Assembly: GCA_944388865.1 (NCBI GenBank)
Contig: CALXKM010000019.1
Span: 1 to 48,126, forward strand
DNA from: an uncultured Duodenibacillus sp.
GTDB lineage: Bacteria > Pseudomonadota > Gammaproteobacteria > Burkholderiales > Burkholderiaceae_F
Length of the DNA: 48,126 nucleotides
Reading direction: 5' to 3'
A program made the position numbers and the translations under genes. Below, piece by piece: positions 26,321 to 47,905 of this stretch (position 1 is the first letter of the stretch; each line of letters starts with the position of its first letter). A model generated the notes under the pieces. That model ran no database searches. It was not told the origin of the DNA and worked only from the letters and a program-made list of their open reading frames with translations.

Positions 26321-26686
26321 ATGCAGATGTTGATGAGTGTTGCAATTGTGGTTCAGATCATTGCCGCGGTTGCAGTCATTATTTTGGTCCTGCTGCAGCA
26401 CGGCAAGGGTGCTGATCTCGGTGCAGCCTTTGGCGCCGGCGCTTCCGGTTCGCTTTTCGGTGCAACGGGGTCGGCCAATTTTCTGTCGCGTTCTACGGCT
26501 ATTGCTGCGACGGTGTTTTTCTGCGCGACGATCGCCATCACCCTTGGTTCGGGCGTCTTTCAGAAGAGCGCTGAGAAGAAGGCCGGCGGCGTTTTGGGTT
26601 CTGTAACGACCGAACAGGCTGCGGGAGCAGAAAATTCTGCACAGGGTGGTGCAAACGACTTGCAATCCAACCAGATTCCGCGCTAA
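26321..26686 (+). CDS. secG: Preprotein translocase subunit SecG
   Basis: SecG is the small accessory subunit of SecYEG. The 121-residue product has two membrane helices (about 5-24 and 56-77) around the conserved cytoplasmic loop [20 protein letters not shown] with [14 protein letters not shown], the family hallmark. The Ala/Gln/Ser-rich tail is typical. The ATG at 26321 has GAGAAAG upstream. A TTGACA at 26292-26297 may be a -35 element, though no good -10 follows. The tRNA-Leu(GAG) gene comes next, as in many proteobacteria. Confidence 0.95.
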
Positions 26687-26693
26687 AATACTC

Positions 26694-26725
26694 ATCTTCG
26701 CTGAACGGAAACGGACAGCGAAGAT
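26694..26725 (+). terminator. Perfect 10-bp hairpin between secG and tRNA-Leu
   Basis: ATCTTCGCTG (26694-26703) pairs with CAGCGAAGAT (26716-26725). It is followed by an A-rich rather than T-rich run, so it may be a processing or pausing hairpin at the secG-tRNA junction rather than a strict terminator. Confidence 0.45.
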
Positions 26726-26742
26726 ATAAGAAAAATTTGCAA

Positions 26743-26827
26743 GCGGTCGTGGCGAAATTGGTAGACGCGCAGCCTTGAGGTGGCTGTGGCGAGAGTCATG
26801 AGAGTTCGAGTCTCTCCGACCGCACCA
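26743..26827 (+). tRNA. leuU: tRNA-Leu (anticodon GAG), copy 1
   Basis: An 85-base tRNA with encoded CCA. Acceptor GCGGTCG (26743-26749) pairs with CGACCGC (26817-26823), discriminator A. The anticodon loop TTGAGGT is closed by CAGCC/GGCTG, giving GAG. A long class II variable arm and GTTCGAG T-loop are present. It follows secG as in E. coli and Burkholderia. Confidence 0.97.
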
Positions 26828-26832
26828 AGCAC

Positions 26833-26910
26833 TGGGGTATCGCCAAGTCCGGTTAAGGCAGCGGATTCTGAATCCGCCATTCGTAGGTTCGAATCCTACT
26901 ACCCCTGCCA
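26833..26910 (+). tRNA. tRNA-Gln (anticodon CTG), copy 1
   Basis: A 78-base tRNA including CCA. The anticodon stem GCGGA/TCCGC closes loop TTCTGAA, anticodon CTG. The acceptor arms TGGGGTA and TACCCCT pair at positions 2-7, but position 1 (U) faces U72, a mismatch where tRNA-Gln usually has U1-A72. Discriminator G, as GlnRS requires. It starts five bases after the leucine tRNA, so both come from one precursor. Confidence 0.95.
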
Positions 26911-27017
26911 GAAACCCACGGGTTTTGTGCTGCAGTGCAAATTTTCTTGCTTTTTCCGCTGTTTCATATAAAATGGCGGTCCGCGAAGCGAAAGCTGAGC
27001 GAAAAAAATCTGAACAT

Positions 27018-27102
27018 GCGGTCGTGGCGAAATTGGTAGACGCGCAGCCTTGAGGTGGCTGTGGCGAGAGTCATGAGAGTTCGAGTCTCTCCGACCGCAC
27101 CA
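27018..27102 (+). tRNA. tRNA-Leu (anticodon GAG), copy 2
   Basis: Identical to the copy at 26743 over all 85 bases. A TATAAA hexamer followed by a G/C-rich stretch (about 26969-26990) precedes it, which looks like its own stringently controlled promoter. Confidence 0.97.
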
Positions 27103-27107
27103 GGCAC

Positions 27108-27185
27108 TGGGGTATCGCCAAGTCCGGTTAAGGCAGCGGATTCTGAATCCGCCATTCGTAGGTTCGAATCCTACTACCCCTGCCA
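27108..27185 (+). tRNA. tRNA-Gln (anticodon CTG), copy 2
   Basis: Identical to the copy at 26833, including the U1:U72 mismatch. The five-base spacer to tRNA-Leu differs by one base from copy 1. A weak hairpin and a run of eight T (about 27208-27241) follow and probably end the transcript. Confidence 0.95.
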
Positions 27186-27317
27186 ATTGTGCCGATGTTC
27201 TCAGAAAAGAAGGGTCGAGACGTTGTGTCCGGCTCTTTTTTTTCGCCCGAAATTTCTTCGGTATTCAAAAGCTTCGAGTTTTCTCGGCGCGAAGCGCGCT
27301 GCAAAAGGTAAAAAAAG

Positions 27318-27341
27318 GCCTGCAGCGTAAATTCTGCAGGC
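27318..27341. terminator. Bidirectional terminator after gltS
   Basis: GCCTGCAG (27318-27325) pairs with CTGCAGGC (27334-27341). A-rich sequence precedes it and TTTTTT follows, so it can stop transcription in both directions between the tRNAs and gltS. Confidence 0.75.
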
Positions 27342-27373
27342 ACTTTTTTCAAGAAGGCAAGCGCAGCTTTCCA

Positions 27374-28630
27374 CTAAAAGCTCATCGCGCCCATCCAGGT
27401 GATGATCAGCGCGTTGATCAAGTCGATCAGGAAAGCGCCGACAATGCTGACGATAAGCCATGACTGCGGATTTGCACCGTATTTCTCGCTGATGGCCTGC
27501 ATGTTGGCCAGACCATTGGCAGTTGCGCCCATCGAAAAGCCGATGCCGCCCACCGTGAGCATCACGGCTGTATAGTCGCGTCCAAACAGGCCAAAGAGCA
27601 CAAAGTAGGCATAGATCATCATCAGAATCGTTTGGCACAGCAAAATGATGACCAGCGGCAGCGCAAGATGCACGAGCTCGTGGAGCTTGAGCGAATTGAT
27701 GGCCATCGTTACGAAGAGCACAAGGCTGATGTCGGCGACGGCATTCAAACCGGTTTTGTCAATCTGAAGCTTGCCCGTGAAGTCGGCAATGTTGCGCACG
27801 ATGGCGGCAATAATCATCGAGCCGATGTAGCCCGGCAGCGTAATGAACTGGCCAAGATAGTTGCTCAGAAACGTGCCTAGGGCCATGCACACGGCAATCA
27901 TGCCGCCAGCTTTAAAGAGCTGCTCAGTAAAGCTCGGGTGTTCGGCCGAATGTTCGTCAATGACGTCGGTTTTCACCTCTTCGGGAACATTGAGCTCTTT
28001 GGCCATGTCTGGATCGGTAAGCGGCGTTTTAACTTTGTAGCGGCGAATGAGCCATTCGCCGAACGGTCCGCCGATTGTAAGGGCTGCAACCATGCCGAAA
28101 GTCGCTGAAGTCACGGCAACGACCGTGCCCCCGGTTGTCCCGTAGAGATCTTCAAAGTAGGGGCCAAATGCTGCCGACGTGCCCAGTCCGCCCATCATGG
28201 AAACGGAACCTGCAAGAATGCCGTAGTGAAAGTCATACCCCATCGATTCTGTTACGACAATGCCGATGCCGTTTTGTACAAAGCAAAGCACCGTTACGGC
28301 CAGCAGAAAGCAAACAAGAAGTTTTCCGCCCTGAGCGATGAGCTTGAGGCTGGCCATCATGCCGATGGTTGTAAAAAAGGCAAGCATCAGCATCGACTGC
28401 AGCTTGGAGTCAAAGTGAACCTGCAGGATGCCGCTTGCTTCAAGAATGGACAAAACGAGCGCCACGGGCATGCCGCCTACGACCGGGCTCGGTACGGAAA
28501 AGCGTTCGAGAAAACTGATTTTCTTTTTGAGCCAGACGCCGCCGTAGTAGGCTAAAACGGCCAGCGCAAGCGCCTGCACCATATCGACGTTAACTATCAG
28601 CATGTCATTGGCTGCATTTTCAATCGCCAC
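27374..28630 (-). CDS. gltS: Sodium/glutamate symporter GltS
   Basis: GltS imports glutamate with sodium across the inner membrane. The 418-residue product has two homologous halves of about five helices, each with a G-G-rich re-entrant loop: V-S-M-M-G-G-L-G-T-S-A-A-F-G in the first and T-V-G-G-I-G-F-S-M-G-A-T-A in the second, the signature of the family. The N-terminal V-Q-A-L-A-L-A-V-L-A-Y-Y-G-G is usual. The start is GTG 28630, six bases after GGGAGG; the ORF upstream lacks similarity. A charged central loop (residues ~204-240) separates the halves. Glutamate would feed amino-acid fermentation or biosynthesis. Confidence 0.93.
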   Translation of the reverse strand: MAIENAANDMLIVNVDMVQALALAVLAYYGGVWLKKKISFLERFSVPSPVVGGMPVALVLSILEASGILQVHFDSKLQSMLMLAFFTTIGMMASLKLIAQGGKLLVCFLLAVTVLCFVQNGIGIVVTESMGYDFHYGILAGSVSMMGGLGTSAAFGPYFEDLYGTTGGTVVAVTSATFGMVAALTIGGPFGEWLIRRYKVKTPLTDPDMAKELNVPEEVKTDVIDEHSAEHPSFTEQLFKAGGMIAVCMALGTFLSNYLGQFITLPGYIGSMIIAAIVRNIADFTGKLQIDKTGLNAVADISLVLFVTMAINSLKLHELVHLALPLVIILLCQTILMMIYAYFVLFGLFGRDYTAVMLTVGGIGFSMGATANGLANMQAISEKYGANPQSWLIVSIVGAFLIDLINALIITWMGAMSF

Positions 28631-28869
28631 GAAATCCTCCCTTGTAATGTTTATGAAAGAACCGCCGGCGCAAAAAGCTCCCCTTTCGGGCGTTTTGCGC
28701 AATGGTGATTCGTGGTGTTGGTTTGATTGCTTATCCCAAATGTTGTTTTTTTACTAGCAAAATCGGGAACCCATAATTTTCCCCAACTTTGCTGCATTTG
28801 GCAAGAGCCGAAAAAAGCACCTGCACCGTTTGAAAAAAGATTTCGCAGGCAAAGCGAACTTTTCGCGGG

Positions 28870-29733
28870 CTATGTATGCTCAAGCCACGCAAGAAGTTGG
28901 TTTTGAAGCTCGAGCGCATCACTTTTTCCCATGTTGTAGGCAAGTTCGATTTCGTTGGGATCATGCGAGAGCCTGCCTACGGGAATCGGCTTGGCGGGGC
29001 GAATGACGAAGGCTGATTGCGCCTGCTGCTGTTTTTGGATATAGGCCTGCGTGCGCTCGTAATGGGCCGGACTGTTTTCAAAAGTGCGGCAGAAGTTTGG
29101 ATAGCGTCGATAAAAGACGCGCGCCAAAATAGCATCCCGGTCTTTGACGTGATGCTCCTGCGGATGCGTGAGCACAACGATGTTGCGCGCAAAGCCCATC
29201 TCTTCAAAAGCCTTGAGCGGCACGCGATCCGAGCAGCCGCCGTCGAGCAGCTTCTTGCCTTGATACTCAATTGGTCGGGAAACATAGGGCAGGGAAGCCG
29301 AGGCAATGAGCGCAGGCATCTCTTCGATGCAGTTGCGCATGCGCAGATACTCCGGTCTGCCGGTTTCAATATTGGTGCTTACTGCCCAAAAGCCGATGCC
29401 CGAGTTTTCAAAGGCTTCTTCATCGAATGGTTCAAGCTCGGAGGGAATCACGCGATAGCAAAAGTCATTGTCAACAATGCTGCCGGTTCTCAGAAGCGTG
29501 CGCAGACTGAAAAACCTTGGATCCTTGCAAAAGCGCTTGTAGATGCGATAGCTCCTTTCTTTTTGTCCGGAAACGAATGAGCAGCCATGGATTGCTCCGG
29601 CAGACACGCCGATGACGCCTTCAATGGGTAGATGCAGATCGTGCAGCACGTCAAGGACGCCGGCGGCATAAATCGCGCGCACGCCGCCGCCTTCGACGAC
29701 AAGACCAAGACGAGAGGTTGCTGAAGAGCTCAT
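28870..29733 (-). CDS. Patatin-like phospholipase (YjjU/RssA type)
   Basis: The 287-residue protein has all patatin elements: the oxyanion loop G-G-G-V-R-A (15-20), nucleophile Ser44 in G-V-S-A-G, and the catalytic Asp164 in D-G-G. It belongs to the bacterial YjjU-like group with the C-terminal cap of aromatic and basic residues (Y-E-R-T-Q-A-Y-I ... N-E-I-E-L-A-Y-N-M-G). Function is acyl hydrolysis of membrane or stored lipids; the natural substrate is unknown. ATG 29733 is chosen as the start because family similarity begins at R-L-G-L-V-V-E-G; two further in-frame starts exist upstream (ATG 29754, GTG 29811), none with a good ribosome-binding site. It lies downstream of the giant helicase on the same strand. 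Confidence 0.85.
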   Translation of the reverse strand: MSSSATSRLGLVVEGGGVRAIYAAGVLDVLHDLHLPIEGVIGVSAGAIHGCSFVSGQKERSYRIYKRFCKDPRFFSLRTLLRTGSIVDNDFCYRVIPSELEPFDEEAFENSGIGFWAVSTNIETGRPEYLRMRNCIEEMPALIASASLPYVSRPIEYQGKKLLDGGCSDRVPLKAFEEMGFARNIVVLTHPQEHHVKDRDAILARVFYRRYPNFCRTFENSPAHYERTQAYIQKQQQAQSAFVIRPAKPIPVGRLSHDPNEIELAYNMGKSDALELQNQLLAWLEHT

Positions 29734-29776
29734 GCTGCAGGACTTTCGAAATTGCATAAAAGGAAGAAAACCAAAA

Positions 29777-29807
29777 TTTCTGCTCGCCTCGAATGCCTCG
29801 GCAGAAA
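29777..29807 (-). terminator. Terminator of the helicase gene
   Basis: TTTCTGC (29777-29783) pairs with GCAGAAA (29801-29807); on the minus strand it is followed by TTTTGGTTTTC. It would separate the helicase gene from the patatin gene. Confidence 0.55.
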
Positions 29808-29844
29808 GCACGAAGCTTAGTCTTTTTTGGCGGAACTCGGTAAA

Positions 29845-32800
29845 TCAGCTTTGCTCAGAGAGCCTTCGAAAATGAAACTTCGGAAGTACGACGGCTTCTT
29901 CTTGATCGTTTTTGCGATCTTTCCATGCGACGATAAAGCCGATTTCAGCCCGCTCAATCATCCAGCCGGCCGCTTGCATTTTCTGCAGCCGAGTCATGCC
30001 TTTTTCCGACATGCGCAGGACATTTTTGAGCCCAAAGCGAGTGTTTGCCTGAAACATTTTTGGCGAGTCCTGCCGAGCAAGAAGTTCTTGGCCGCTTCTG
30101 AGCGAGCAGATAAGTTTTTTCTTGCCGATGAAAAAGTCGAGATGAACGTCGCGCAATGAAAAAGAAACGAAAAGTTTTTCGGGCGGCGTCCAGAACGTGC
30201 GGTCAACTTCGTGCACGAATTCCGAACACTGAAGGCGGGAGAAAATCGGCTGGCTTTCATGAATGAAAAGGTTTGATTTTGCCCGCGTGACCGCAACGTA
30301 CAGGCAGCGTTTTTGCTCGTCGTTCAGGCGGCTCTGCGCATTGTCCAGCCACAAATGCACGGTATCGAATTCCGTGCCTTTGGACTTGTGAATCGTTGAG
30401 ACCAAGATGCTTTTTTGATGTGCTTCATAAAGGTCTTCTATACGCGACTCGCGCACGAATTCAACAAAATCCGTGTAGTAGCGAGCTTTTTTAGGCGTAA
30501 TCGAATCATAGAGCTTCGTGAGCTTCAAAAGGATCTCGAAGGAGGTGCTTTCTCGATATGTGCGCGCAATCTTTTCAAGCGCCGCCTCCCAGTCCTCCTG
30601 ACGAACGAGAGGACAGTCGCATCGCCGTTTGTCAAGTTCGCAAAGAAAGGCTCTTACTTCAAGAATTCTTTCTAATGAAAAATTTGCTTCGGTTTCAACC
30701 AATTTAGCCTTGATGCCTGCAGCTGCAAGTGCGCCGAACGCCTCAAGAGCCTGAGCATTGGTGCGCGTGAGAACAGCCGTTGTGCCTGCGGCGGGGCGCT
30801 GGCGGTGTTGGTCGGCAATGATTCGTGCAATGGGCTTGGCCAAATGCGCAGAAGACTCGTACAAAATGACGCGCGTTTGACCGCGAGCGTCGTTGACAGC
30901 CTTGCCAGGCGAGGATTTCATGCGGCAGCTGATTTTTGCAGCAAAAGTATTTGCAAGATCAACAATGGCAGCTGTGCTGCGGTAGTTTTCGATCATTTCG
31001 TAACGTTTGGTGGCGTGATGTTCGGCAAATGATCTGAAAAACTTCGGGTCGGAGCCGCGAAATTCGTAGACGTTTTGATCGTCATCGCCGACGGCGATGA
31101 CGCGCATTTCCGGGTTGCGCTCAATGAGTGCACGAATGAGATCAAAGTCTGTCTCGTTCATGTCCTGAGCTTCGTCGACAACCAAAACCGACTTGGCAAT
31201 GCGAGCGGACTCTGCCTTGTGTTCGCGAATCATTGCAGCAGCGTCGGCGACCACGGTTTGAGCGTCTTGCAAAGTGCCGAGCTTGCCCAGCAGGTCAAAG
31301 GAAAAGGAGTGGAAGGTTTTGATCTGGGCGTAATGAGCGGCCGAGCCGATAAGTTCAATGAGGCGCTGCTTGAACACGGTTGCCGCAGCGCGTGAAAATG
31401 TCAGCACAAGCAGCTGTTCGCTTTTTGTCTCTTCCAGAAGCAAAAGAGAGGCAAGCTTGTGCACTAGTACTTTCGTTTTCCCGCTGCCGGGCCCTGCCGC
31501 CACGGCAATGAATTGGGATTGCTTGTCGTTGACGATTTTGCGCTGAATTTCAGACAGCCCATCAAAGAGGCGGCGCGCAGTGCTCTGAGTGATTGGTCTC
31601 GAGAGCGCGGCCTCGCTTTCATCTTTGAAGTAACGGCGAATGAAAAGCTTGTAGTCAAGCGAAAAATAGTCTTTGACAAATGCAAGTGCTTGTCCGTAGT
31701 CGGCGGCAAGCAGACTTGCATATTTTGCGACAATATGAATCTGTTGAATTTTCTGGCGATAATATCCGTCAAGTTTTTTGTAGTCGTCTTTGCGATACTG
31801 CATGCGATTGTCTGCGACCAGGCGCCTAATGGTCATGGCGTTGTAGATCACCAGAAAGCCGCCTTCAAGAGCGAAGGCTTCGATTTTTGACAGATAAAGC
31901 AGGGCGTTGCGCACGCTCGCCGTCGTTGCATCTTGATTGAGCAAGGAAAAGCTTTTGCATTGTCTGCTTAGACCGACAAGAGAGAACTTAACGAGCGACT
32001 TGCCGTCCGAATAGTTTTCTGCGGGCGGCAGAGAATACAGAATTTCGATGATGCTCGAGCACAGCGCTTTGCGCGACTCAAGACTTTTGACAACAGCTTC
32101 GTACTTTCCTTCGAATCGAATGTCTACGCATTGACTGCCGGCATTAATGAGCTGATCAATGAGCCCGGAGATGCGCCAGAAATAAAAGATTGTGCGTATG
32201 TTCTTGACGCTCGAGGCAAGAGCATTTTCTAAAGCCTTCGTGTTGAGCTCCTTGAGGCTCACGCGAGGATCCTTTCGGTCTCTAAGCTCATCGGCCAGGA
32301 ACTTTTCAAGCAAGAAGAAATCTTTGAGCAGGCGCATCGTGTGCTTTTGGGAACCTTTGCTGCCGACGACGGCGCCCATGTCCGTGTCATCCTTGAGAAT
32401 GCCGGCTTCGCGCAGATCCGTTACGATTTCGATCACTTCGGGCTTCGCAATGCCCAGACGGTCAGACAAATAGTCGATGCGAGATTCAGCTTCGCCCGAG
32501 ACGGCCATCGATGTGCTGCGTCTGGAGATGAGAGAGCGCATGATTCTTTCGGCTTTCTGCCTCTTGCCAGGATCAGCAAAAGCTTGAACAGAGCTGATTT
32601 TTTGAACCGCTTCCTGCTGATTCTTAACTTGAATGCTCGTTGCATATACTCGCGGAGAGTTCATTTCGCGGCGGATGTATTGAGCATCCTCAAGGGCGGC
32701 AAGCGCCGTTTTGACTTTTGTCTCGAGTTCTGAGGCGTTGTTGGTCTGCTCGTCGCTCCAGCCGGCGGCTCGGGCAAGTTCCAGTGCAGAACTTGAAAAA

Positions 32801-34722
32801 GCCTGTCTTGGACCTGCGAGTTCTTTGATGCCGCGCCAGATGTCTTTGATTTCCTTCAGACTCAGCCGGCTTTGAGAAAGCAGCTGAAAGTGCTTTTGCA
32901 GATCGCCTTCGCAAAATAAAACCCAGCAGTCAGCCTGCAGGTTGGGATCACGAGCTCCGCGGCCGGCCTCTTGTACGTAGTTTTCTAGAGAAGGCGAAAT
33001 GTCGTAGTGCACGATCAGCCCAATGTCTTTTTTGTCCACGCCCATGCCGAAGGCATTGGTTGCAACGATGATGCGCACGCGATCAGAGAGAAAATCTTCC
33101 TGGTTGCGCTTTTTCTGAGGAGCTGGCATCGGGCCGTTGTAGGCTAGAGCCGGAAAGCCGTCGGTGCTCAAGCGGTTTGCAAGTTCAAGCGTGAGCCTCA
33201 CTGACGAGACATAGACGATGCAAGGGCAATTTTTTTGCTCAAGAATTTCTCTAAGGCGTGCATACTTTTCTTCGGCATCTTTGACTTCCGTCACTTTGTA
33301 GCGAAGATTCGTGCGCACGGATTTCGATGCGAAAATTTTGAGCTCTAATCCCAGTTTTTCCCGAAAGTACTCGCAGATGTCTTGAACAACGCGTTGTCTG
33401 GCCGTTGCGGTAAAACACGAAACAGGAATGCGTCGATTGCTGCCGCGAATGCGCTGTACTCTGGCGATGAAGTCGGCAATGAAGAGATAATCGACGCGAA
33501 AATCGTGCCCCCAGGCAGAAAAACAGTGTGCTTCATCTATGACAAAGCGTTCAATGCGGCGCGACAGCAGAACTTTTTCTATTGTTTTGGAGCGCAGCGC
33601 TTCGGGTGAAAGATAGACAATGCTAGCCGTTCCATTGATGACGAGCTCGTAGGCTTTTGCGCGCTCTACGGGATCGAGCATTCCGTTGATGGTTGCTGCT
33701 TCGCTGATGCCCGCTTGCATTAGGTGATCGACCTGATCCTTCATCAGAGATTGCAGCGGAGAGATGACGACTGTGAGTCCGCGGCTTGCCTGCGCAGCCA
33801 TGAGAGCCGGCAACTGAAAAGCCAACGATTTGCCGCCTCCTGTCGGAAAGATGGCTAGAAGCGATTCGTCGTTAATTGCGGCCTGAGCCGCAAGCTCTTG
33901 AAGTGGTTCGCCCGCATAGAGGCGAAATTGATCAAAGCCAAAAAAGCGACGCAGCCCGACGTGGAGATTCAAAGCGCTGCTGCAGTACTTGCAGCCCATT
34001 TGGCAGCAGGTGCTGCGCAGCCTTTGCATCACCGTTTCTATCGACGGAAAACGGTGCATCAGCCAAGCCGGCGTTGTTGACGAGCCGTCGTCTGCGCTGA
34101 TCAGAGCAAGCGAATAGGCAAGTTCAACGGAGGCCTCGGCAATCAGCCCAAGCACATCGGCATGCGAGCAGAGCTTGCCTTCAAAAAAGTCCAATATGAG
34201 CGCGGCGGTTTGTTTGCTCTCAACGATGGCCTCGTCGTCCGAGCAGAGTCCTGCGGCTCGCAGGTAGGCAAAAAAACCTTCAAAAGCTCGGTGTTTTCGC
34301 AGCAGCAAACCATAAATGCGCTGCAGCGGACGAGGCAGCTTGCAGAACTCGGCAGCAGATTCGTCAAAGACAATTTTTGCTTTACCGGCATCGGCTACAG
34401 GATCGTTGAGCTGTTCGGAGACGATTTTGTCGTCTTTTACAAGCCGGTGATAAGGCTTTTTGGGAAAAAGCAGAGCCGAAAGATAAAGCGTGTCAATGAG
34501 CGGCTTGTGAAAATGAATGCCGAACTTCTCAAGCATCGGCACGTCGAAATCAACAATGTTGTGCCCGCAGATAAAGTGCGCGTCGCGCACAAACTCAACA
34601 AAAGGAGCCGCGCGGCTGCTGCGGAAAGTGCCGCCGTCTTCGCGCAATGCGCCAAGCTCAAGGAGTCTGCTATCGTCGCAGGAAATCTCGGCATCAATGA
34701 AGACGACATGCGGCTGATCCAT
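29845..34722 (-). CDS. 1625-residue fusion: DEDD exonuclease, RecQ-type SF2 helicase, UvrD-type SF1 helicase
   Basis: One uninterrupted frame joins three machines. Residues ~5-120 are a DnaQ-like 3'-5' exonuclease: D-A-E (Asp10, Glu12), G-H-N-x-x-D-F-D (53-60) and a His92/Asp region. A cysteine knot C-C-Q-M-G-C-K-Y-C (239-247) follows. Residues ~255-620 are RecQ-like: T-G-G-G-K-S (294-299), D-E-A-H (396-399), Q-E-A-G-R-G-A-R-D (584-592). A helical/winged-helix middle has no RecQ zinc-binding cysteines. Residues ~1050-1510 are UvrD-like: G-P-G-S-G-K-T (1077-1083), D-E-A-Q-D (1183-1187), G-D-D-D-Q-N-V-Y, I-H-K-S-K-G (about 1445), V-A-V-T-R-A-K. A beta-rich C-terminal domain follows. All catalytic motifs are intact, so both motors and the nuclease should be active in DNA repair or foreign-DNA control. 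The ATG lacks a good ribosome-binding site. Confidence 0.9.
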   Translation of the reverse strand: MDQPHVVFIDAEISCDDSRLLELGALREDGGTFRSSRAAPFVEFVRDAHFICGHNIVDFDVPMLEKFGIHFHKPLIDTLYLSALLFPKKPYHRLVKDDKIVSEQLNDPVADAGKAKIVFDESAAEFCKLPRPLQRIYGLLLRKHRAFEGFFAYLRAAGLCSDDEAIVESKQTAALILDFFEGKLCSHADVLGLIAEASVELAYSLALISADDGSSTTPAWLMHRFPSIETVMQRLRSTCCQMGCKYCSSALNLHVGLRRFFGFDQFRLYAGEPLQELAAQAAINDESLLAIFPTGGGKSLAFQLPALMAAQASRGLTVVISPLQSLMKDQVDHLMQAGISEAATINGMLDPVERAKAYELVINGTASIVYLSPEALRSKTIEKVLLSRRIERFVIDEAHCFSAWGHDFRVDYLFIADFIARVQRIRGSNRRIPVSCFTATARQRVVQDICEYFREKLGLELKIFASKSVRTNLRYKVTEVKDAEEKYARLREILEQKNCPCIVYVSSVRLTLELANRLSTDGFPALAYNGPMPAPQKKRNQEDFLSDRVRIIVATNAFGMGVDKKDIGLIVHYDISPSLENYVQEAGRGARDPNLQADCWVLFCEGDLQKHFQLLSQSRLSLKEIKDIWRGIKELAGPRQAFSSSALELARAAGWSDEQTNNASELETKVKTALAALEDAQYIRREMNSPRVYATSIQVKNQQEAVQKISSVQAFADPGKRQKAERIMRSLISRRSTSMAVSGEAESRIDYLSDRLGIAKPEVIEIVTDLREAGILKDDTDMGAVVGSKGSQKHTMRLLKDFFLLEKFLADELRDRKDPRVSLKELNTKALENALASSVKNIRTIFYFWRISGLIDQLINAGSQCVDIRFEGKYEAVVKSLESRKALCSSIIEILYSLPPAENYSDGKSLVKFSLVGLSRQCKSFSLLNQDATTASVRNALLYLSKIEAFALEGGFLVIYNAMTIRRLVADNRMQYRKDDYKKLDGYYRQKIQQIHIVAKYASLLAADYGQALAFVKDYFSLDYKLFIRRYFKDESEAALSRPITQSTARRLFDGLSEIQRKIVNDKQSQFIAVAAGPGSGKTKVLVHKLASLLLLEETKSEQLLVLTFSRAAATVFKQRLIELIGSAAHYAQIKTFHSFSFDLLGKLGTLQDAQTVVADAAAMIREHKAESARIAKSVLVVDEAQDMNETDFDLIRALIERNPEMRVIAVGDDDQNVYEFRGSDPKFFRSFAEHHATKRYEMIENYRSTAAIVDLANTFAAKISCRMKSSPGKAVNDARGQTRVILYESSAHLAKPIARIIADQHRQRPAAGTTAVLTRTNAQALEAFGALAAAGIKAKLVETEANFSLERILEVRAFLCELDKRRCDCPLVRQEDWEAALEKIARTYRESTSFEILLKLTKLYDSITPKKARYYTDFVEFVRESRIEDLYEAHQKSILVSTIHKSKGTEFDTVHLWLDNAQSRLNDEQKRCLYVAVTRAKSNLFIHESQPIFSRLQCSEFVHEVDRTFWTPPEKLFVSFSLRDVHLDFFIGKKKLICSLRSGQELLARQDSPKMFQANTRFGLKNVLRMSEKGMTRLQKMQAAGWMIERAEIGFIVAWKDRKNDQEEAVVLPKFHFRRLSEQS

Positions 34723-34974
34723 GGAAAGAAAAAGCGTCTGAGAACCCGGTTGTTAAAAGCAGCGCACGCCTGAAAATGGCGGCTGATGGAATTCAGCAAT
34801 TTTAGCCGCGCAGTCCAATGCACATGCGATGGTTTTGCAGACGCGACCGGTATCTTGCGGCAGATTGCAGAAGAATCGTCGAGAGCTGCATAAGCCTCAG
34901 AGTGCATTTTTGGTCTACACTCGGCAAAGCTGCTTATCCTGCAGCTCATCGACGGCAAACAAAAAGGCGAAAAA

Positions 34975-36000
34975 ATGCTGCACTTTGATACTGACTACAT
35001 GCGCGGGGCGCATCCCGAGGTAATGAAAAGACTCATGGAGACCAATCTGCTGCAAACTCCTGGGTATGGAACAGACCAATACACGGCTCACGCACGAGAA
35101 CTCATCGTCAAGGCCTGCGGGCTTGAAGACGGCAAGGTGTTTTTCCTCTCGGGCGGCACCCAGACCAATGCCACGGTCATCGACAGCGTGCTTGCTCGTC
35201 ATGAAGGCGTTTTGGCCGTAGAAACCGCGCACATCAACGTGCACGAGGCTGGAGCCATTGAGGCCTGTGGCCACAAAGTGCTCACGCTGCCTTCGCATCA
35301 GGGCAAGATGTGGGCTGAAGATCTGCAAAAGTGGCTGGATGATTTTTTTGGCGACGACACCTATGAGCACATGGTCGCTCCCGGCATGGTCTATATCTCG
35401 CATCCTACCGAGCTTGGCACTTTGTATTCGCTCTCGGAGCTTGAAGCCATCAGCGCGATTTGCCGCAAGGCGCATATTGCCTTGTATCTGGACGGGGCTC
35501 GTTTGGGGTATGGCCTGGCTTCGCCTGAGGCCGATGTGACGCTCAAGGACATTGCGAGGCTTTGCGACGTTTTCTACATCGGCGGCACCAAAGCAGGCGC
35601 GCTTTTCGGCGAGGCCGTCGTCGTCAGCAACCCCGAACTTTTTGCGCATGCCGTGCCGCTCATCAAGCGCCATGGCGCGCTGATGGCCAAGGGCAGACTG
35701 ATCAGCGTGCAGTTTGAGAGACTTTTTACGGACGATCTCTACGTAGAGATTGCCCGCAGCGCTGTTGCCAGAGCAATGCAGCTCAAAGAGGCCTTTGTGC
35801 GGGCGGGGTTTGAGCTTTTTATTGATTCGCCTACCAATCAGCAGTTTTTCGTGCTCCCCAACGAGGTCATCGATCGACTGCAGAGCGCGGCGACTTTTGA
35901 GCTTTGGGGACCAAGAGGAGAAAAGAAAACGCCTGTGCGCTTTGTGACCGACTGGGCAACGAGCGAGGATGACGTCAAGGCGCTGATTGAATTGCTCTGA
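34975..36000 (+). CDS. ltaE: Low-specificity L-threonine aldolase
   Basis: Threonine aldolase splits L-threonine or L-allo-threonine to glycine and acetaldehyde using pyridoxal phosphate. The 341-residue protein starts with the family pattern F-D-T-D-Y-M-R-G-A-H-P, has the PLP-binding D-G-A-R (Asp173) and I-G-G-T-K-A-G (PLP Lys206), and ends with a small C-terminal domain carrying F-V-T-D-W-A-T. The typical bacterial start M-L-H-F-D-x-D-Y shares ATG 34975 with AAGGCG upstream. It runs divergently from the helicase. Confidence 0.9.
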   Translation: MLHFDTDYMRGAHPEVMKRLMETNLLQTPGYGTDQYTAHARELIVKACGLEDGKVFFLSGGTQTNATVIDSVLARHEGVLAVETAHINVHEAGAIEACGHKVLTLPSHQGKMWAEDLQKWLDDFFGDDTYEHMVAPGMVYISHPTELGTLYSLSELEAISAICRKAHIALYLDGARLGYGLASPEADVTLKDIARLCDVFYIGGTKAGALFGEAVVVSNPELFAHAVPLIKRHGALMAKGRLISVQFERLFTDDLYVEIARSAVARAMQLKEAFVRAGFELFIDSPTNQQFFVLPNEVIDRLQSAATFELWGPRGEKKTPVRFVTDWATSEDDVKALIELL

Positions 36001-36478
36001 TGCTTTGCAGCCTTTTTTGCGCGGGCTTTTTTATTTCTGAATTGCCGCTCAACTCGTTTTGTGCAGAGGTTCGCTGCCAGCCGGATTGCTCCGGCCGGCT
36101 CCTTTGCGTTGGCTGTAATACAGCAAGAGAATCAACGCCGCAGAGCGAAAAACTTGACAAAAGAGCCCGAACATCGGACACTCTCAGGTGCTTTTGTTGA
36201 AATATTCGAAGCAGTCGTCGGCTGCTTCAATTTTCTGACGCCATGAAGTCTCGCAGCCTCATTCTTTTTTCCTTTGCTGCCGCGACCGCCTACTGCCGGT
36301 CGTGCCTCATGCGGCCTGCACTCTGATCTGCTTGTGGGCCGCAGTTTTGACGCGGCTTCAGCCTTTGCCGGACGTTCTCATAGAAAACCCATTTTTTGCA
36401 GATCTGCGGGTCTAAAAGCCTGCGCTGCAGGATGTGGTCCGGTTCGAGAAAAATACCCAATCAGCAATTACACGCAAC
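36001..36478 (+). promoter_or_regulatory. Long leader upstream of metN
   Basis: 478 bases without a convincing gene. It holds weak T-rich terminator signals right after ltaE, a stem AGCCGG/CCGGCT (about 36080-36101), and a promoter-like TTGACA (36154-36159) with GACACT at 17 bases. A perfect 7-bp hairpin GAAGCAG/CTGCTTC (36208-36228) followed by AATTTTC looks like an attenuator, and a 27-codon frame sits at 36243-36326. I see no known SAM-riboswitch fold. The length and terminator-like hairpin suggest transcriptional attenuation of the methionine transporter, but this is not shown. Confidence 0.45.
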
Positions 36479-37507
36479 ATGCTTGAACTAAAGCACATTA
36501 CAAAAACGTTTCAAACCGAAGCAGGTGCCGTCACTGCCGTTGACGATGTATCGCTTTCGATTCGTCCCGGAGAGATTTTCGGCATCATCGGCTTTTCGGG
36601 TGCAGGAAAATCCACGCTTGTGCGCTGCATCAATTTGCTCGAAAGGCCGACTTCGGGTGAAGTCATCGTCGACGGCACTGATCTCACAAAGCTTTCGGAC
36701 GCTGAGCTGCGCGTCGTGCGCCGCCGCATCGGCATGATTTTTCAGCACTTCAATCTCATGCCCAGCCGCACGGTGTTCGGCAACATCGCGCTTGCACTGC
36801 GTCACTCCGGTCTTGATAAAGAGGCCAAGGCTCGAAAAATCAAAGAGCTCCTTGCCCTTGTGGGGTTGTCCGACAAGATCAACGCCTATCCGGCGCAGCT
36901 CTCGGGCGGGCAAAAGCAGCGCGTAGCCATTGCTAGAGCGCTTGCCAATGATCCCAAGGTGCTTTTGTGCGACGAGGCTACAAGCGCGCTTGATCCGCAG
37001 ACAACGCACTCCATTTTGAAGCTTCTCAAGGAAGTCAATCAAAAGCTCAAGCTCACGATTGTGGTCATCACGCATCAGATGGCAGTCATCAAGGAAATTT
37101 GCGATCGCGTGGCGGTGATGAAAAAGGGCCGCATCATTGAAGAGGGCAGCATTACGGAGATTTTTGCGCACCCGCAGGCCGATCTCACCAAGGACTTCAT
37201 CAATACGGCCAACAACGTCAAGAAGTTTCTTGAGGTGGTCTCAAGCGGCGAGCTTGCCTCCGAACTCAATGCGGGCGACAAGGTGCTGCTGCTGACCTAT
37301 ACGGGAAAATCGGCAGGCGAGCCGATGGTGGTGGCGCTCTACGAGCGCTTTCACGTCAAGGCAAACATTGTTTTTGGCAACATTGACTTCATTCAAGGCT
37401 CGGCGCTCGGCAAACTCGGCGTCGTGCTCTCGGGCGAGCCTGAGGCCGTTGCAGCTGCTCAGCAGTATTTAAGAGACAACGGCGTTGCCATTGAGGAGCT
37501 TTCGTAA
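36479..37507 (+). CDS. metN: Methionine ABC transporter ATP-binding protein MetN
   Basis: The 342-residue ATPase has Walker A G-F-S-G-A-G-K-S-T (38-46), signature L-S-G-G-Q-K-Q-R, and Walker B L-C-D-E-A-T-S-A-L-D. The N-terminal block L-x-H-I-T-K-T-F is usual for MetN. The C-terminal ~80 residues form a NIL domain, the methionine-sensing regulatory domain of these importers. It is the first gene of metNIQ, with metI 2 bases after its stop. The ATG at 36479 has no strong ribosome-binding site and an in-frame upstream start at 36434 would add 15 unconserved residues. Confidence 0.93.
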   Translation: MLELKHITKTFQTEAGAVTAVDDVSLSIRPGEIFGIIGFSGAGKSTLVRCINLLERPTSGEVIVDGTDLTKLSDAELRVVRRRIGMIFQHFNLMPSRTVFGNIALALRHSGLDKEAKARKIKELLALVGLSDKINAYPAQLSGGQKQRVAIARALANDPKVLLCDEATSALDPQTTHSILKLLKEVNQKLKLTIVVITHQMAVIKEICDRVAVMKKGRIIEEGSITEIFAHPQADLTKDFINTANNVKKFLEVVSSGELASELNAGDKVLLLTYTGKSAGEPMVVALYERFHVKANIVFGNIDFIQGSALGKLGVVLSGEPEAVAAAQQYLRDNGVAIEELS

Positions 37508-37509
37508 AA

Positions 37510-38187
37510 ATGGACTTCATCAACACCTTGATGCCCAATTTCGAGCGTCTGAGCGGCGAACTGCTCGAGTGCATTGGGCAAACCTTCACGATGCTTGCCG
37601 TCTCAGGCACCATTGCCTGGGTTCTGGGCGTGGCCGTCGGCGTACTTTTGATTGTGTGCCGCCCTCACGGCATCCTTGAAAATCGCGTGCTTTTCACGAT
37701 TTTCGATCGAGGCATCGACATCATCCGCTCCATTCCCTTCATCATTCTCATCGTGCTGCTTATCCCTGTGAGCCGCTTTTTGGTCGGAACGGGTTCGGGC
37801 GTGACGGGCTCCTTTGTGGCGCTCGTTGCCGGCACCGTGCCTTTTTTTGCCCGCCAGATCGAGTCGGTGCTCTCAGACATCGACCACGGTCTGATTGAAG
37901 CAAGTCAGGCCATGGGCTTTTCGCCGCGCGAGATCATCTTCAGCGTCTATCTGAAGGAAAGCATTCCGGGCATTACCCGCGTGACGATGATTACCTTCGT
38001 CAGCCTGGTCGGCATCACGGCCATTGCAGGGGCCATCGGCGCGGGCGGTTTGGGCGACTTTGCCATTCGCTACGGCTACCAAATGGGCTATCGGGATATG
38101 ATTTGGCTCACCGTAATCATCATTTTGCTCATCATCAGCGTTTTCCAATTTTTCGGCAACATCATCATCCGCAAATCCACGCATTAG
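37510..38187 (+). CDS. metI: Methionine ABC transporter permease MetI
   Basis: The 225-residue permease has five membrane helices. The family hallmark E-C-I-G-Q-T-F-T-M-L lies near the N-terminus, followed by I-D-I-I-R-S-I-P-F-I-I-L and the EAA loop E-A-S-Q-A-M-G-F-S-P-R-E-I-I that docks the ATPase. G-A-G-G-L-G-D follows it as in other MetI proteins. It pairs with MetN just upstream and MetQ downstream, and starts with ATG 37510 after GGAG at 36-37496. Confidence 0.94.
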   Translation: MDFINTLMPNFERLSGELLECIGQTFTMLAVSGTIAWVLGVAVGVLLIVCRPHGILENRVLFTIFDRGIDIIRSIPFIILIVLLIPVSRFLVGTGSGVTGSFVALVAGTVPFFARQIESVLSDIDHGLIEASQAMGFSPREIIFSVYLKESIPGITRVTMITFVSLVGITAIAGAIGAGGLGDFAIRYGYQMGYRDMIWLTVIIILLIISVFQFFGNIIIRKSTH

Positions 38188-38222
38188 GCTTGCGATTCAG
38201 CGTTCATAGGGAGAAAAGAAAA

Positions 38223-39104
38223 ATGCACATCAATTCGGGTCTGACCAAGTTTGCCGTCGGCGCTGCCGCGGCCGCTGTCTGCGCAGTCTCTCTGACTGGG
38301 TGCGGCGACGACAAGAACGAGGCAGCTGCTTCCGGCACGACGGTCGTCAAGGTCGGCGTTGTGGGCGACTACAACGCACAGTGGGATACGATCAACGAAA
38401 TTCTTAAAAAGGACAAAATCACCATCAAGCTGGTGAAATTTTCCGACTACGCCACTCCAAACCGCGCGCTTGCCGATGGCGAAATTGATCTCAACGCTTT
38501 CCAGCACAAGGCCTATCTTGCCAACGACATTGCCCGCAACGGCTACAAGATTGAAGCAATCGGGGATACGATCATCACGCCGCTGCGCGTGTTCAACAAC
38601 AAAAACAAGCTCAAGTCCATGAACGAGGTCAAGGACGGCGACATCTTTGCCATTCCGAGCGACCTCACCAACGGCGGCCGCGCGCTCAAGGTGCTTGAAG
38701 CGGCAGGGCTAATCGTCTGCGATCCGGCCAAGGGCTATGTTCCCACCAAGACCGACATCACAAAGTACAACGTCAAGATCGAAATTCGCGAAGCCGAGTC
38801 AGGCGTGCTCTACAACATTTTGCCCGACGTTTCGGCTGCGCTCATCAACGGCGGCAATGCCTATACCGCTGGGCTTGACGCCGTCAAGGATTCGATCTTT
38901 GCCGAAAACATCAACGCCAAGGAAAATCCCAACGTCGGGCAGCTCTACAACGTGATCGTCGCGCGCAGCAAAGATAAGGACAATCCTGTCTACAAGAAGG
39001 TGGTCGAAGCCTACCATACGCAGCAGACTGCCAAGACGCTCATGGATGTCTACAAGGGCGCCTTTACGCCGGTCTGGGCGGGTTCTGAAAACTACAAGTA
39101 TTAA
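38223..39104 (+). CDS. metQ: Methionine-binding lipoprotein MetQ
   Basis: The 293-residue product has a lipoprotein signal peptide with lipobox L-T-G-C and then the NlpA/MetQ fold: V-V-K-V-G-V-V-G-D, F-S-D-Y-A-T-P-N-R-A-L-A-D-G-E-I-D-L-N-A-F-Q-H, and P-S-D-L-T-N-G-G-R-A-L. It delivers D- or L-methionine to MetNI in the periplasm. AGGGAG at 38207-38212 precedes the ATG. It completes a metNIQ operon of conventional order. Confidence 0.94.
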   Translation: MHINSGLTKFAVGAAAAAVCAVSLTGCGDDKNEAAASGTTVVKVGVVGDYNAQWDTINEILKKDKITIKLVKFSDYATPNRALADGEIDLNAFQHKAYLANDIARNGYKIEAIGDTIITPLRVFNNKNKLKSMNEVKDGDIFAIPSDLTNGGRALKVLEAAGLIVCDPAKGYVPTKTDITKYNVKIEIREAESGVLYNILPDVSAALINGGNAYTAGLDAVKDSIFAENINAKENPNVGQLYNVIVARSKDKDNPVYKKVVEAYHTQQTAKTLMDVYKGAFTPVWAGSENYKY

Positions 39105-39127
39105 TTTCTGATTTTTGCATCAGTCGT

Positions 39128-39188
39128 CCGCACGAAGCTTTTTCGGCATGCATCCGGCCGCAGACTTTGTGCGGGCAAATTTTTTTTG
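39128..39188 (+). terminator. Terminator after metQ
   Basis: CCGCAC-N-AAG (39128-39137) pairs with CTT-N-GTGCGG (39165-39174) around an inner G/C-rich loop, then a run of eight T. It would separate metNIQ from the M20 hydrolase gene, although read-through could still couple them. Confidence 0.65.
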
Positions 39189-39201
39189 CGGACAATTTCA
39201 A

Positions 39202-40389
39202 ATGCTTCATATCGATCCGTTCGTGCTCGAACAAAAGGACTACATCGTCAATATGCGCAGATACTTTCATGCGCATCCTGAAATCAGCCTCAAGGAGTAC
39301 AAAACAAGCGCGCGCATTATTGAAGAGCTCGAACGCGAGGGCATCGAGTACGAGCGCGTGGGCGAAACAGGCGTATTTGCCCGCATTGTCGGCAAAAAGA
39401 TTTCGGATAAGAAAGGCCGCGTGGTGGCGCTGCGCGCTGATATGGATGCGCTGGGCATGCAGGACCTAAAGAGCTGCCCGTACGCTTCGCAAAACGAAGG
39501 GCTCTGCCACGCCTGCGGTCATGACGGACATACGGCGACGCTTTTGGCAGCGGCTCGCATCCTCAAGGCGCGCGAAAACGAGTTTTGCGGTGAAGTGAGG
39601 CTCTTTTTTCAGCAGGCCGAAGAAATCGGTCAGGGTGCGCGTCAGTTTGTGGCTGCGGGACTTCTTGAGGGCGTAGACCGACTTTTTGGCGCGCATGTCA
39701 GCAGCTCTCTTGACGTCGGACAGGTTTCGGCCGTTGCGGGGCCCATCAATGCGAGCTGCGACTTTTTCCGCATCAGCGTCAAGGGCAAGGGCGCGCATGT
39801 CTCCAAGCCCAATATGGGCATTGATGCGCTCTACGTTGCAAGCCAGATCGTGGTGGCGCTGCAAAGCATCGTTGCGCGCAGCACCGATCCGATGGATGCG
39901 GTCGTCGTCGGCGTGGGCAAGGCCTGGGCCGGCACGCAGTACAACATTGTGGCCGAAGAGGCGGTGCTCGAAGGCACAACGCGCACCTTTACGCCCGAGG
40001 TGCGTGAATTCACCAATAGGCGCGTCGAGGAAATCGCCAAGCAGACGGCTGCGCTTTATGGCGCCCAGGCTTCAGTGACGTTTAAAAATTACTCCTCGCC
40101 ACTGATTACTGACGCCAAGGCAACGGCAGAAGTGCGCCGCATTGCTGAAAAGATCGTCGGCCCCGAAGGAATTGCGGCCGATTATCCCAAGTCGATGAGC
40201 GCAGAAGACTTTGCCGACTATTTGCCGCATGTCTGCGGTACGTTCGTGTACTTCGGCACCCGCAGCAAGAAGCCGGGCACCGAGTACTCCAATCACAATG
40301 GGCACTTCGACATCGACGAAGACGGTCTGCTCGTGTCCTGCAGCCTGTACGTAAACTACGCGCTTTTTGTGCTCAACGAGCTGCAATAG
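39202..40389 (+). CDS. M20 family metallo-amidohydrolase (N-acyl amino acid deacylase type)
   Basis: The 395-residue protein belongs to the M20D aminoacylase/hippurate hydrolase group. Metal-site elements are F-H-A-H-P-E (22-27), L-R-A-D-M-D-A-L (77-84), C-H-A-C-G-H-D-G-H-T-A (102-112) and Q-Q-A-E-E (137-141). The G-K-G-A-H-V-S dimerisation region and the C-terminal N-H-N-G-H-F complete the set. Typical reaction: release of an amino acid from its N-acyl form. Lying just after metNIQ it may deacylate N-formyl- or N-acetyl-methionine, but this is inference from position alone. The gene is full length. Confidence 0.87.
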   Translation: MLHIDPFVLEQKDYIVNMRRYFHAHPEISLKEYKTSARIIEELEREGIEYERVGETGVFARIVGKKISDKKGRVVALRADMDALGMQDLKSCPYASQNEGLCHACGHDGHTATLLAAARILKARENEFCGEVRLFFQQAEEIGQGARQFVAAGLLEGVDRLFGAHVSSSLDVGQVSAVAGPINASCDFFRISVKGKGAHVSKPNMGIDALYVASQIVVALQSIVARSTDPMDAVVVGVGKAWAGTQYNIVAEEAVLEGTTRTFTPEVREFTNRRVEEIAKQTAALYGAQASVTFKNYSSPLITDAKATAEVRRIAEKIVGPEGIAADYPKSMSAEDFADYLPHVCGTFVYFGTRSKKPGTEYSNHNGHFDIDEDGLLVSCSLYVNYALFVLNELQ

Positions 40390-40417
40390 TTTTCAGAAAG
40401 TCCGCTGAAGGCGCCGC

Positions 40418-47311: not shown

Positions 47312-47905
47312 TTATGCAACGTCTTTTGCTTTGTGCGCACTCAATGCTTCTGTCGCAAGAAGGTCAACAAGTTCGTCAATTTTGTCGGATTGATAAAAGA
47401 GCGCTCTGGTCTGCGGCGTCATTAAGCCGGCCCGAACGGATTGATCTACGAACTCAAAAAGCTTGTCGTAGTAGCCGGCGACATTGAAGAAGCCAGCCGG
47501 TTTGTTGAAGACACCGATGGAGTTGTTGGTGATGACTTCAAAAATTTCTTCGAATGTTCCTATGCCGCCGGGCAGCGCAATGAAAAAATCCGACAAATCG
47601 GCCATCGTCTTTTTGCGCTCGTGCATGTCGGCAACGGTAATGAGCCGCGTAAGGTTCTCCGCGGGAGGTTCCTTGCTTTTGAGAAACTCAGGGATGACGC
47701 CCGTGACGTGCACGCCTGCCGATAAAGCCGCTTGGGAAACAATGCCCATCAGGCCGGAGTTGCCTCCGCCGAAAACGACATTGATGCCGCGCTGAGCAAG
47801 AGTTTTTCCTGTACGAGCGGCGATTTCAGAAAAGAGGGGATCGGCGCCGGGGCGTGAACCGCAGAACACGCAGGCGGTGAGCGTATGAAAAGATTGCAAA
47901 GACAT
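47312..47905 (-). CDS. LOG-family (TIGR00730) Rossmann-fold protein
   Basis: The 197-residue product carries the lysine-decarboxylase-like/LOG signatures: V-F-C-G-S-R-P-G (13-20), V-F-G-G-G-N-S-G-L-M-G and P-G-G-I-G-T-F-E-E (about 113-121). Members hydrolyse the N-glycosidic bond of nucleoside monophosphates (cytokinin-activating type) and include PpnN relatives. The catalytic Arg-Glu pair is in the M-H-E-R-K and G-T-F-E-E segments. The bacterial role is nucleotide salvage; the precise substrate is uncertain. Start ATG 47905, no clear ribosome-binding site. Confidence 0.88.
   Translation of the reverse strand: MSLQSFHTLTACVFCGSRPGADPLFSEIAARTGKTLAQRGINVVFGGGNSGLMGIVSQAALSAGVHVTGVIPEFLKSKEPPAENLTRLITVADMHERKKTMADLSDFFIALPGGIGTFEEIFEVITNNSIGVFNKPAGFFNVAGYYDKLFEFVDQSVRAGLMTPQTRALFYQSDKIDELVDLLATEALSAHKAKDVA

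Follow-up and report, generated by a model that had tools for sequence, protein, structure and literature searches.

WRN has an exonuclease joined to a RecQ helicase in its domain layout. RecBCD, AddAB, and AdnAB use another type of nuclease and consist of several subunits. GajB of the Gabija system works with a separate nuclease, GajA, and DinG is not known to have a motor of superfamily 1 (SF1). According to one study, Bacillus subtilis DinG, a fusion of a DEDD nuclease and a superfamily 2 (SF2) helicase, degrades single-stranded DNA (ssDNA) in the 3′-5′ direction (PMC12525004). A DinG review describes DEDDh and degenerate forms of the nuclease, and also a predicted fusion of a degenerate DEDD domain with a helicase (pExoDinG), in which two of the acids are missing (PMC11981726). 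Here, I describe a gene encoding a DEDD nuclease, a RecQ helicase core, and a UvrD-type motor in one chain. It lies on a 48,126-nucleotide stretch of DNA (the window) of an uncultured Duodenibacillus sp., which is contig 19 (CALXKM010000019.1) of a 2.49 Mb draft genome in 53 contigs (GCA_944388865.1).

Domain architecture and active sites

The gene is an ATG-started open reading frame (ORF) on the minus strand (29845-34722), which encodes one protein of 1625 amino acid residues, plus stop. A sequence-only reading of the window had proposed that a DnaQ-type nuclease, a RecQ, and a UvrD are fused in a single frame of this length. This was borne out by the ORF and by the Pfam and NCBIfam matches, the strand being minus. 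The triple fusion is real and is a single chain. Together with the alignment, these data give the order of a DEDD nuclease, a Cys4 segment, a RecQ core, a winged-helix-like linker, a UvrD motor, and a C-terminal beta domain. The Pfam matches of the window protein are UvrD-helicase (3.5e-34), DEAD (2.7e-30), UvrD_C (7e-25), and Helicase_C (1.5e-17), and the AlphaFold2 models have a mean predicted local distance difference test (pLDDT) score of 84.0 for the N-half and 84.5 for the C-half. Among 97 loci, a long single ORF of at least 1,450 residues was found in 75 cases besides the window gene. Some relatives are interrupted; L067 and L091 are each in two ORFs, and L040 has a late start. Others stop at contig ends, such as the pieces in genomes G005 and G009. 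For the window gene, separate genes or a frameshift were ruled out by the one open frame.

Are the motifs conserved among the relatives? The first alignment has 76 rows, consisting of the window protein and the 75 other long ORFs, some of which are truncated at contig ends. A second set has 32 ORFs, 20 from genomes and 12 from IMG/VR contigs; two of its members are genes of the first alignment (L128 = L008 and L129 = L007), a third probably is (L161 and L018), L199 lacks the N-terminus, and L203 lacks the C-terminus. A smaller alignment, A1, has 42 rows, the window protein and the plasmid rows among them. In the first alignment, D10, E12, H54, N55, D60, D77, and T78 are identical in 74 rows, the remaining two being gapped, and D111, C185, C240, C244, C247, K298, K1082, R588, R591, R1480, and the DEAH and DEAQ motifs are found in all 76. 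In the second set, the four DEDD acids are kept in 31 of 31 covering rows, the four cysteines in 32 of 32, and the two Walker A lysines in each covering row. At 29% identity, plasmid rows L100-L104 still have all the catalytic residues and the Cys4 site, and plasmid row L099 (32% identical) has lost the greater part of the Cys site. The sequence-only reading had named the loss of key catalytic residues in homologues as what would speak against it; such loss was looked for in both alignment sets and was not seen. Since these residues are found again in the 75 other ORFs and in the second set of 32, a chance explanation of the motifs can be dismissed. As judged from the alignments, a deep family has kept the three catalytic centres and the Cys4 site, and it is very probable that the chain contains three working modules.

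The N-terminal domain (residues 1-160; 34243-34722, minus strand) is a predicted DnaQ/RNase H-like nuclease. Conservation, the order of strands and helices in the AlphaFold2 model, PHROG matches, and a PolC profile match point to this assignment. The residues noticed at first sight (Asp10, Glu12, and an H-N-x-x-F-D motif with H54-N55 and D60) are all present, and D111 is the fourth DEDD acid. Thus, the D, E, D, D set of the DnaQ/DEDDh exonucleases (Exo I-III) is found as D10, E12, D60, and D111 in every covering row; D77-T78, H92, K96, and N106 are further residues of this domain. The DEDDh histidine, five residues before the last Asp, is lacking; residue 106 is Asn in 72, Ser in three, and Cys in one of the 76 rows, and Asn in 27, Ser in two, and Cys in two of the 31 rows of the second set. 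No DEDDy tyrosine occurs at 106-107 in the alignment, residue 107 being Asn or Asp. H92 is found in 75 of the 76 rows, with one gap, and is replaced once in the second set (Leu in L174). H92 or K96, both close to invariant, perhaps serves as the base in an Asn-type DEDD nuclease.

PHROG polymerase-exonuclease families match residues 28-94 of the window protein (best 4.5e-9), and the family profile matches the PolC exonuclease 2p1j (E=0.0018 for the whole sequence and 0.045 for the best stretch). Among the 42 family members, Pfam RNase_T was matched in one and DNA_pol_B_exo1 in five. In the AlphaFold2 model, the first strand carries D10 and E12, and D60 and D111 belong to helices; with the fold order of DnaQ-type nucleases as the standard of comparison, the predicted order of strands and helices is the same. 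The loop 94-102 beside the active site is poorly predicted. RecQ-type matches take all of the best 50 rows of the fold search with the N-half model, because this model spans residues 1-720 and not the nuclease alone, and helicases are again on top in a viral fold library.

The nuclease is followed by a helical segment (residues 161-255; 33958-34242, minus strand) with a putative metal site formed by C185, C240, C244, and C247. It had been read as a C-C-x3-C-x2-C cluster. The last three cysteines of this cluster stand, but the first one (C239) is found in only one of the 76 rows, and C185 belongs to the conserved set.

The RecQ-type SF2 helicase core (residues 257-618; 32869-33954, minus strand) has the motifs PTGGGKS, DEAH, and QEAGRGARD. 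Its TIGR00614 score (RecQ subfamily) is 251.1 bits against a cut-off of 219.8, and the equivalog TIGR01389 stays below its cut-off (299 bits against 640.2 required). Profile matches to BLM, WRN, and RECQL5 cores were found, and RecQ-type helicases (RecQ and RECQL5) are the top fold matches of the N-half model in the PDB. Walker A, DEAH, and motif VI had been called intact; this holds for the lysine and DEAH, but motif VI is atypical. The GAR form at residues 589-590 occurs only in the window protein and L099, and the other 40 of the 42 A1 rows have QEAGRAGRD or close variants. The suggested lack of the RecQ zinc-binding domain was confirmed, since no RecQ-Zn Pfam match was found at E<=1 and none of 74 rows has four Cys in residues 600-720. 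RQC and HRDC also have no Pfam match at E<=1 in the window protein. The core is followed by a family-specific linker of about 420 residues (residues 622-1045; 31588-32859, minus strand) with several winged-helix-like segments, as judged from the AlphaFold2 secondary structure and weak Pfam matches to helix-turn-helix, MarR, and TrmB families, the commonest of which is found in 12 of 42 members.

The second motor (residues 1046-1500; 30223-31587, minus strand) is of the UvrD/Rep-type SF1A, with the motifs AGPGSGKT, DEAQD, GDDDQ, NYRS, STIHKSKG, and YVAVTRAK. The UvrD-type Pfam and NCBIfam matches are placed at about residues 1057-1488, PF00580 and PF13361 are over their gathering scores, and motifs I-VI are conserved. 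PcrA 1pjr, UvrD 2is1, and Rep 1uaa are the top fold matches of the C-half, with AdnB, RecB, and GajB (8sm3) further down. The gap between motifs Ib and II is 44-89 residues (median 45; 73 rows), which is smaller than domain 1B in UvrD, and the Pfam UvrD match skips profile positions 96 to 207. Thus, subdomain 1B is essentially missing; what had been called a complete UvrD-type SF1 helicase has its motifs but is not complete. The C-terminal domain (residues 1501-1625; 29848-30222, minus strand) is modestly conserved, and the AlphaFold2 strands agree with the beta-rich C-terminus proposed earlier.

How does this protein compare with the known systems? WRN also has an exonuclease and then a RecQ core in one chain, and WRN helicase structures match the profile at 246-613. 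The acids and the domain order are those of a DEDDy exonuclease before RecQ, but the window protein has no DEDDy Tyr and no RQC or HRDC match, and it has a Cys4 site before RecQ and a second, UvrD-type motor. RecBCD, AddAB, and AdnAB likewise process ends with a motor or motors and a nuclease, and RecB, AddA, and AdnB are among the fold matches. In contrast to these enzymes, the window protein combines in one chain a DEDD nuclease with an SF2 and an SF1 motor whose expected polarity is the same. GajB is matched by the C-half fold (8sm3 and 8iud) and by PADLOC (best 2.6e-47), but in the window protein the chain itself also contains a RecQ motor and a nuclease, with no recurrent partner; for GajA, no recurrent partner was found in 92 loci and none was seen by eye in the window. 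DpdF (3.3e-92 at 255-725) and PsyrT (5.5e-77 at 257-635) match the RecQ core, but the match is limited to this core plus at most about 100 residues after it, and no Dpd or Psyr partners are among the neighbour-set matches listed (25 each). The best 25 of 87 PADLOC matches of the window protein cover the RecQ or UvrD parts only, with no full-length system match. ExoDinG/DinG of B. subtilis and S. aureus is a bacterial fusion of a DEDD exonuclease and an SF2 helicase as well, but its helicase is XPD-like and not RecQ, and its nuclease is DEDDh, according to the review (PMC11981726).

Since DEDD-helicase fusions are already known, the novelty here lies in the additional SF1A motor and in an active site with Asn. 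The sequence-only reading knew of no characterised member, and a literature search including exact hyphenated fusion names likewise recognised no description of a DEDD-RecQ-UvrD protein; most subscription papers and bioRxiv lie outside its scope, so an earlier description is possible. If the modules all work, one polypeptide would unite a RecQ, a 3′-5′ nuclease, and a UvrD/Rep motor, which are otherwise separate in bacteria, and one could study directly how a single DNA is shared between two motors with the same polarity. The family is hidden in databases under the ordinary RecQ name.

Distribution and mobility

The presence of the gene was counted with a profile (A6) of the family-specific linker, the window's own genome being included each time. 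The gene is present in four of 10 genomes of the genus, 10 of 67 of the family, and 14 of 349 of a phylum sample. Twenty genomes were checked for the number of copies, and all have a single one. A scan of genome contigs gave 388 stretches, 375 of them confirmed, and 80 loci were kept; these may include ordinary RecQ-type proteins. The nearest named relative copy is in a Sutterella metagenome-assembled genome. In a quick FastTree of 84 rows, 41 are labelled Bacteroidota and 21 Bacillota, and five copies from the window's family form one group nested in a mixed gut Bacillota/Bacteroidota group. As a FastTree with long branches, the tree gives a hint of transfer at most. Eight of 72,556 plasmid records cover 80% or more of the query at a single site. 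Plasmid copies come from Bacteroides, Phocaeicola, Aliarcobacter, Cereibacter, Rhizobium, Allochromatium, Thiothrix, and others. Relatives of the linker were also found on 12 IMG/VR contigs, the weakest at 23-27% identity. These searches indicate a widespread family whose gene is accessory on chromosomes, plasmids, and mobile elements.

The window locus itself has the form of a one-gene accessory insert. When window 26501-40500 was compared by blastn with the corresponding locus (L127) of a relative, G004, the stretch 29726-34908 did not align. The flanks (26501-29725 and 34909-39903) align at 83-94% identity, with small breaks at 27246-27373 and 35999-36151. The slot in G004 holds an ORF that is transposase-like by eye (L127 5942-6847), and tblastn found no trace of the helicase there (E of 2 or worse). 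From the flank alignment and the slot comparison, the insert consists of one gene, with a GC content of 51.6%, compared with 55.1% for the window. No convincing terminal repeats flank the insert. Between the aligned blocks of the transporter and the aldolase, another relative (G008) has 325 bp. The copies in G007, G009, and G031 are surrounded mostly by other genes. The host also has a separate RecQ-type ORF (650 residues) and ORFs of the UvrD type (829 and 1184 residues); thus, the fusion gene is an addition.

Proposed function and competing explanations

Patchy presence across genomes, plasmids, and mobile elements suggests that the protein may be a stand-alone machine for foreign or damaged DNA. 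The reading preferred here, to which I give a probability of about 0.48, is that a solitary accessory gene encodes a self-contained, single-chain, ATP-driven helicase-nuclease acting against foreign or conflict-damaged DNA. The RecQ motor would load at forks, gaps, or ends, on single strands with a 3′ end, and open the duplex, which the winged-helix-like linker would grip. The second, 1B-less UvrD motor would translocate 3′-5′ on the exposed strand, clearing proteins or feeding the strand on, and the DEDD domain would trim its 3′ ends. In this way, plasmids, phage intermediates, or conflict-damaged DNA would be destroyed or blocked without a partner protein. By family, both motors are expected to run 3′-5′, so the two would act in tandem on one strand or pull opposite strands of a fork. 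The self-contained unwinding and trimming machine proposed in the sequence-only reading fits the anatomy and the conserved active sites, while its attack on invading DNA, though plausible, is not proven. A more specific version seems doubtful at present: an undescribed, widespread, and mobile one-gene guard against foreign DNA, in which SF2 and SF1 motors of the same polarity feed the Asn-type DEDD nuclease under the control of the Cys4 metal site, possibly iron-sulfur. The on/off distribution makes the gene a testable candidate for solo immunity, likely missed by gene-neighbourhood methods.

Is the gene associated with defence genes? ORFs around 92 loci were collected by a greedy longest-ORF script (1070 ORFs) and clustered, and clusters in at least three loci were considered. 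No partner gene recurs; the largest foreign cluster covers six of the 92 loci, and the cluster that spans 11 loci is made up of the helicase gene itself, as copies or pieces, and one other RecQ-type ORF. An operon with a partner was ruled out by the lack of a recurring neighbour cluster. Same-strand neighbours within 60 bp were found upstream at 12 of 71 loci and downstream at 12 of 69. PADLOC was then applied to three sets of neighbours at E<=1e-15, where one protein may match many families. The target set A8 has 108 proteins from 18 of 19 Pseudomonadota loci (L172 was left out though it bears the gene), and the control A9 has 143 proteins from 18 regions of seven genomes, picked by convenience. 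A10, which has no matched control, has 124 of 126 nearest neighbours of genome loci; a RecQ-type ORF (L083:5791-7896) and a piece of the helicase gene (L091:11401-12792) were left out. The L067 gene piece stayed in A10, so some UvrD/GajB-type matches there may be the gene's own. The families matched number 98 in A8, 64 in A9, and 48 in A10; because one protein can match many families, these counts neither show nor exclude enrichment. Among the matches listed are single LmuA, LmuB, LmuC, type III methylase, and PtuA and three PbeA for A8; MTase_II, a DUF1156 methylase, a PLD helicase, DarG, Cas12f, and three mad3 for A9; and three HNH and single MkoA, MkoC, PD-T4-1, and AbiEii for A10. Single cases were found on plasmids, with a type I restriction-modification system nearby in Allochromatium and a type I-D CRISPR nearby in Thiothrix. 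Of nine IMG/VR contigs examined, five bear genes for a methylase, for restriction, or for both at a distance of up to about 10 kb, and nine of ten hand-picked neighbours on those five contigs have methylase or restriction matches.

Several results weigh against an anti-foreign role. No clear defence-island enrichment was seen among the relatives' neighbours in the PADLOC scans, the control regions also having defence-type matches, and the Pfam families of the neighbours are mostly metabolic or ordinary among the matches listed. The IMG/VR neighbours were hand-picked for the scan and are thus biased, and mobile elements often carry methylases. None of 50,697 phage records has 80% of the query in one place. 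No defence gene was recognised by eye in the window, which had no PADLOC scan, and the neighbours there look housekeeping-like by eye. As for the nuclease, residues 1-160 of the window protein match no Pfam nuclease family, and Asn in place of His or Tyr could give a weak or altered nuclease. The accessory distribution and mobility favour a conflict role over core repair, but the equivocal neighbourhood evidence keeps the odds about even, and I regard an anti-foreign-DNA role, as opposed to repair, as evenly balanced.

The alternative that survives best, although it is held only tentatively, is an accessory enzyme of repair or recombination, that is, a bacterial WRN-like processor of forks and ends that serves the host chromosome during replication stress and is not specially directed at invaders. 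The logic of its modules is as in WRN and in the DEDD and SF2 fusion DinG. The match of the core to the BLM, WRN, and RECQL5 profile suits this explanation, as does the position of the window copy among chromosomal genes that look ordinary by eye, with no clear defence-island enrichment. But patchy presence (4/10 in the genus) and plasmid carriage would be unusual for a repair gene, and proteins of the RecQ and UvrD types are present in the host without it. Four LexA-type patterns were scanned upstream at 71 loci. CTG-N10-CAG was found at six loci, compared with a mean of 2.5 after shuffling, which hints weakly at damage control in some members. The other boxes are rare: GAAC-N4-GTTC and CTGT-N8-ACAG were found at none of the 71 loci, and GTTC-N7-GTTC was found at two (shuffled 0.14), both near-identical Flavobacterium copies.

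It is unlikely that the protein is an enzyme for the maintenance or replication of plasmids or mobile elements that spreads with these elements and is sometimes stranded on chromosomes. Plasmid copies lie near ParA/ParB or SSB genes (Bacteroides L098 and Aliarcobacter L099), and IMG/VR contigs have ORFs that are recombinase-like by eye, as such an enzyme would predict. However, the window copy is a single-gene insert with no other mobile gene seen nearby by eye, and inspection of the recurrent neighbours by eye turned up no family for partition or replication. A catalytically dead nuclease domain that only binds 3′ ssDNA beside a double motor, which would be compatible with the readings of the role, is improbable: Asn106 in the DEDDh His place, Asn or Asp at 107 near the DEDDy Tyr place, and the degenerate fusion predicted for pExoDinG in the DinG review (PMC11981726) are in its favour, but the four acids are kept in every covering row, unlike in pExoDinG, said to miss two, and H92 and K96 could act as base.

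Surroundings of the gene

A scan of window 34650-35050 found no promoter or terminator. The helicase gene adjoins ORFs that are patatin-like and sodium/glutamate symporter-like by eye (window 27374-29811). Good patatin matches were found in four of the 10 genus genomes (G000, G004, G009, and G002), with different surroundings in G002 and G009. The ORF adjoining the N-terminal piece of the helicase in G009 (L134 4638-5246) is 50% identical to a window gene (47357-47881) that is 12.6 kb away from the helicase.

Three neighbours in the A8 set (within L128-L177) match the C-terminal family of XPB-like (ERCC3/RAD25) helicases, and three match PADLOC PbeA. L065, L079, and L087 (Mycoplasmatota/Clostridiales) share a neighbour ORF, which has 345 residues in L087, and four Bacteroidota loci (L033, L035, L066, and L078) share a nearby ORF of up to 661 residues, restriction-like by eye. 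In the window, a pair of tRNA-Leu(gag) and tRNA-Gln(ctg) genes is present as a tandem duplicate (26743-26910 and 27018-27185), and the pair regions cross-align in G004.

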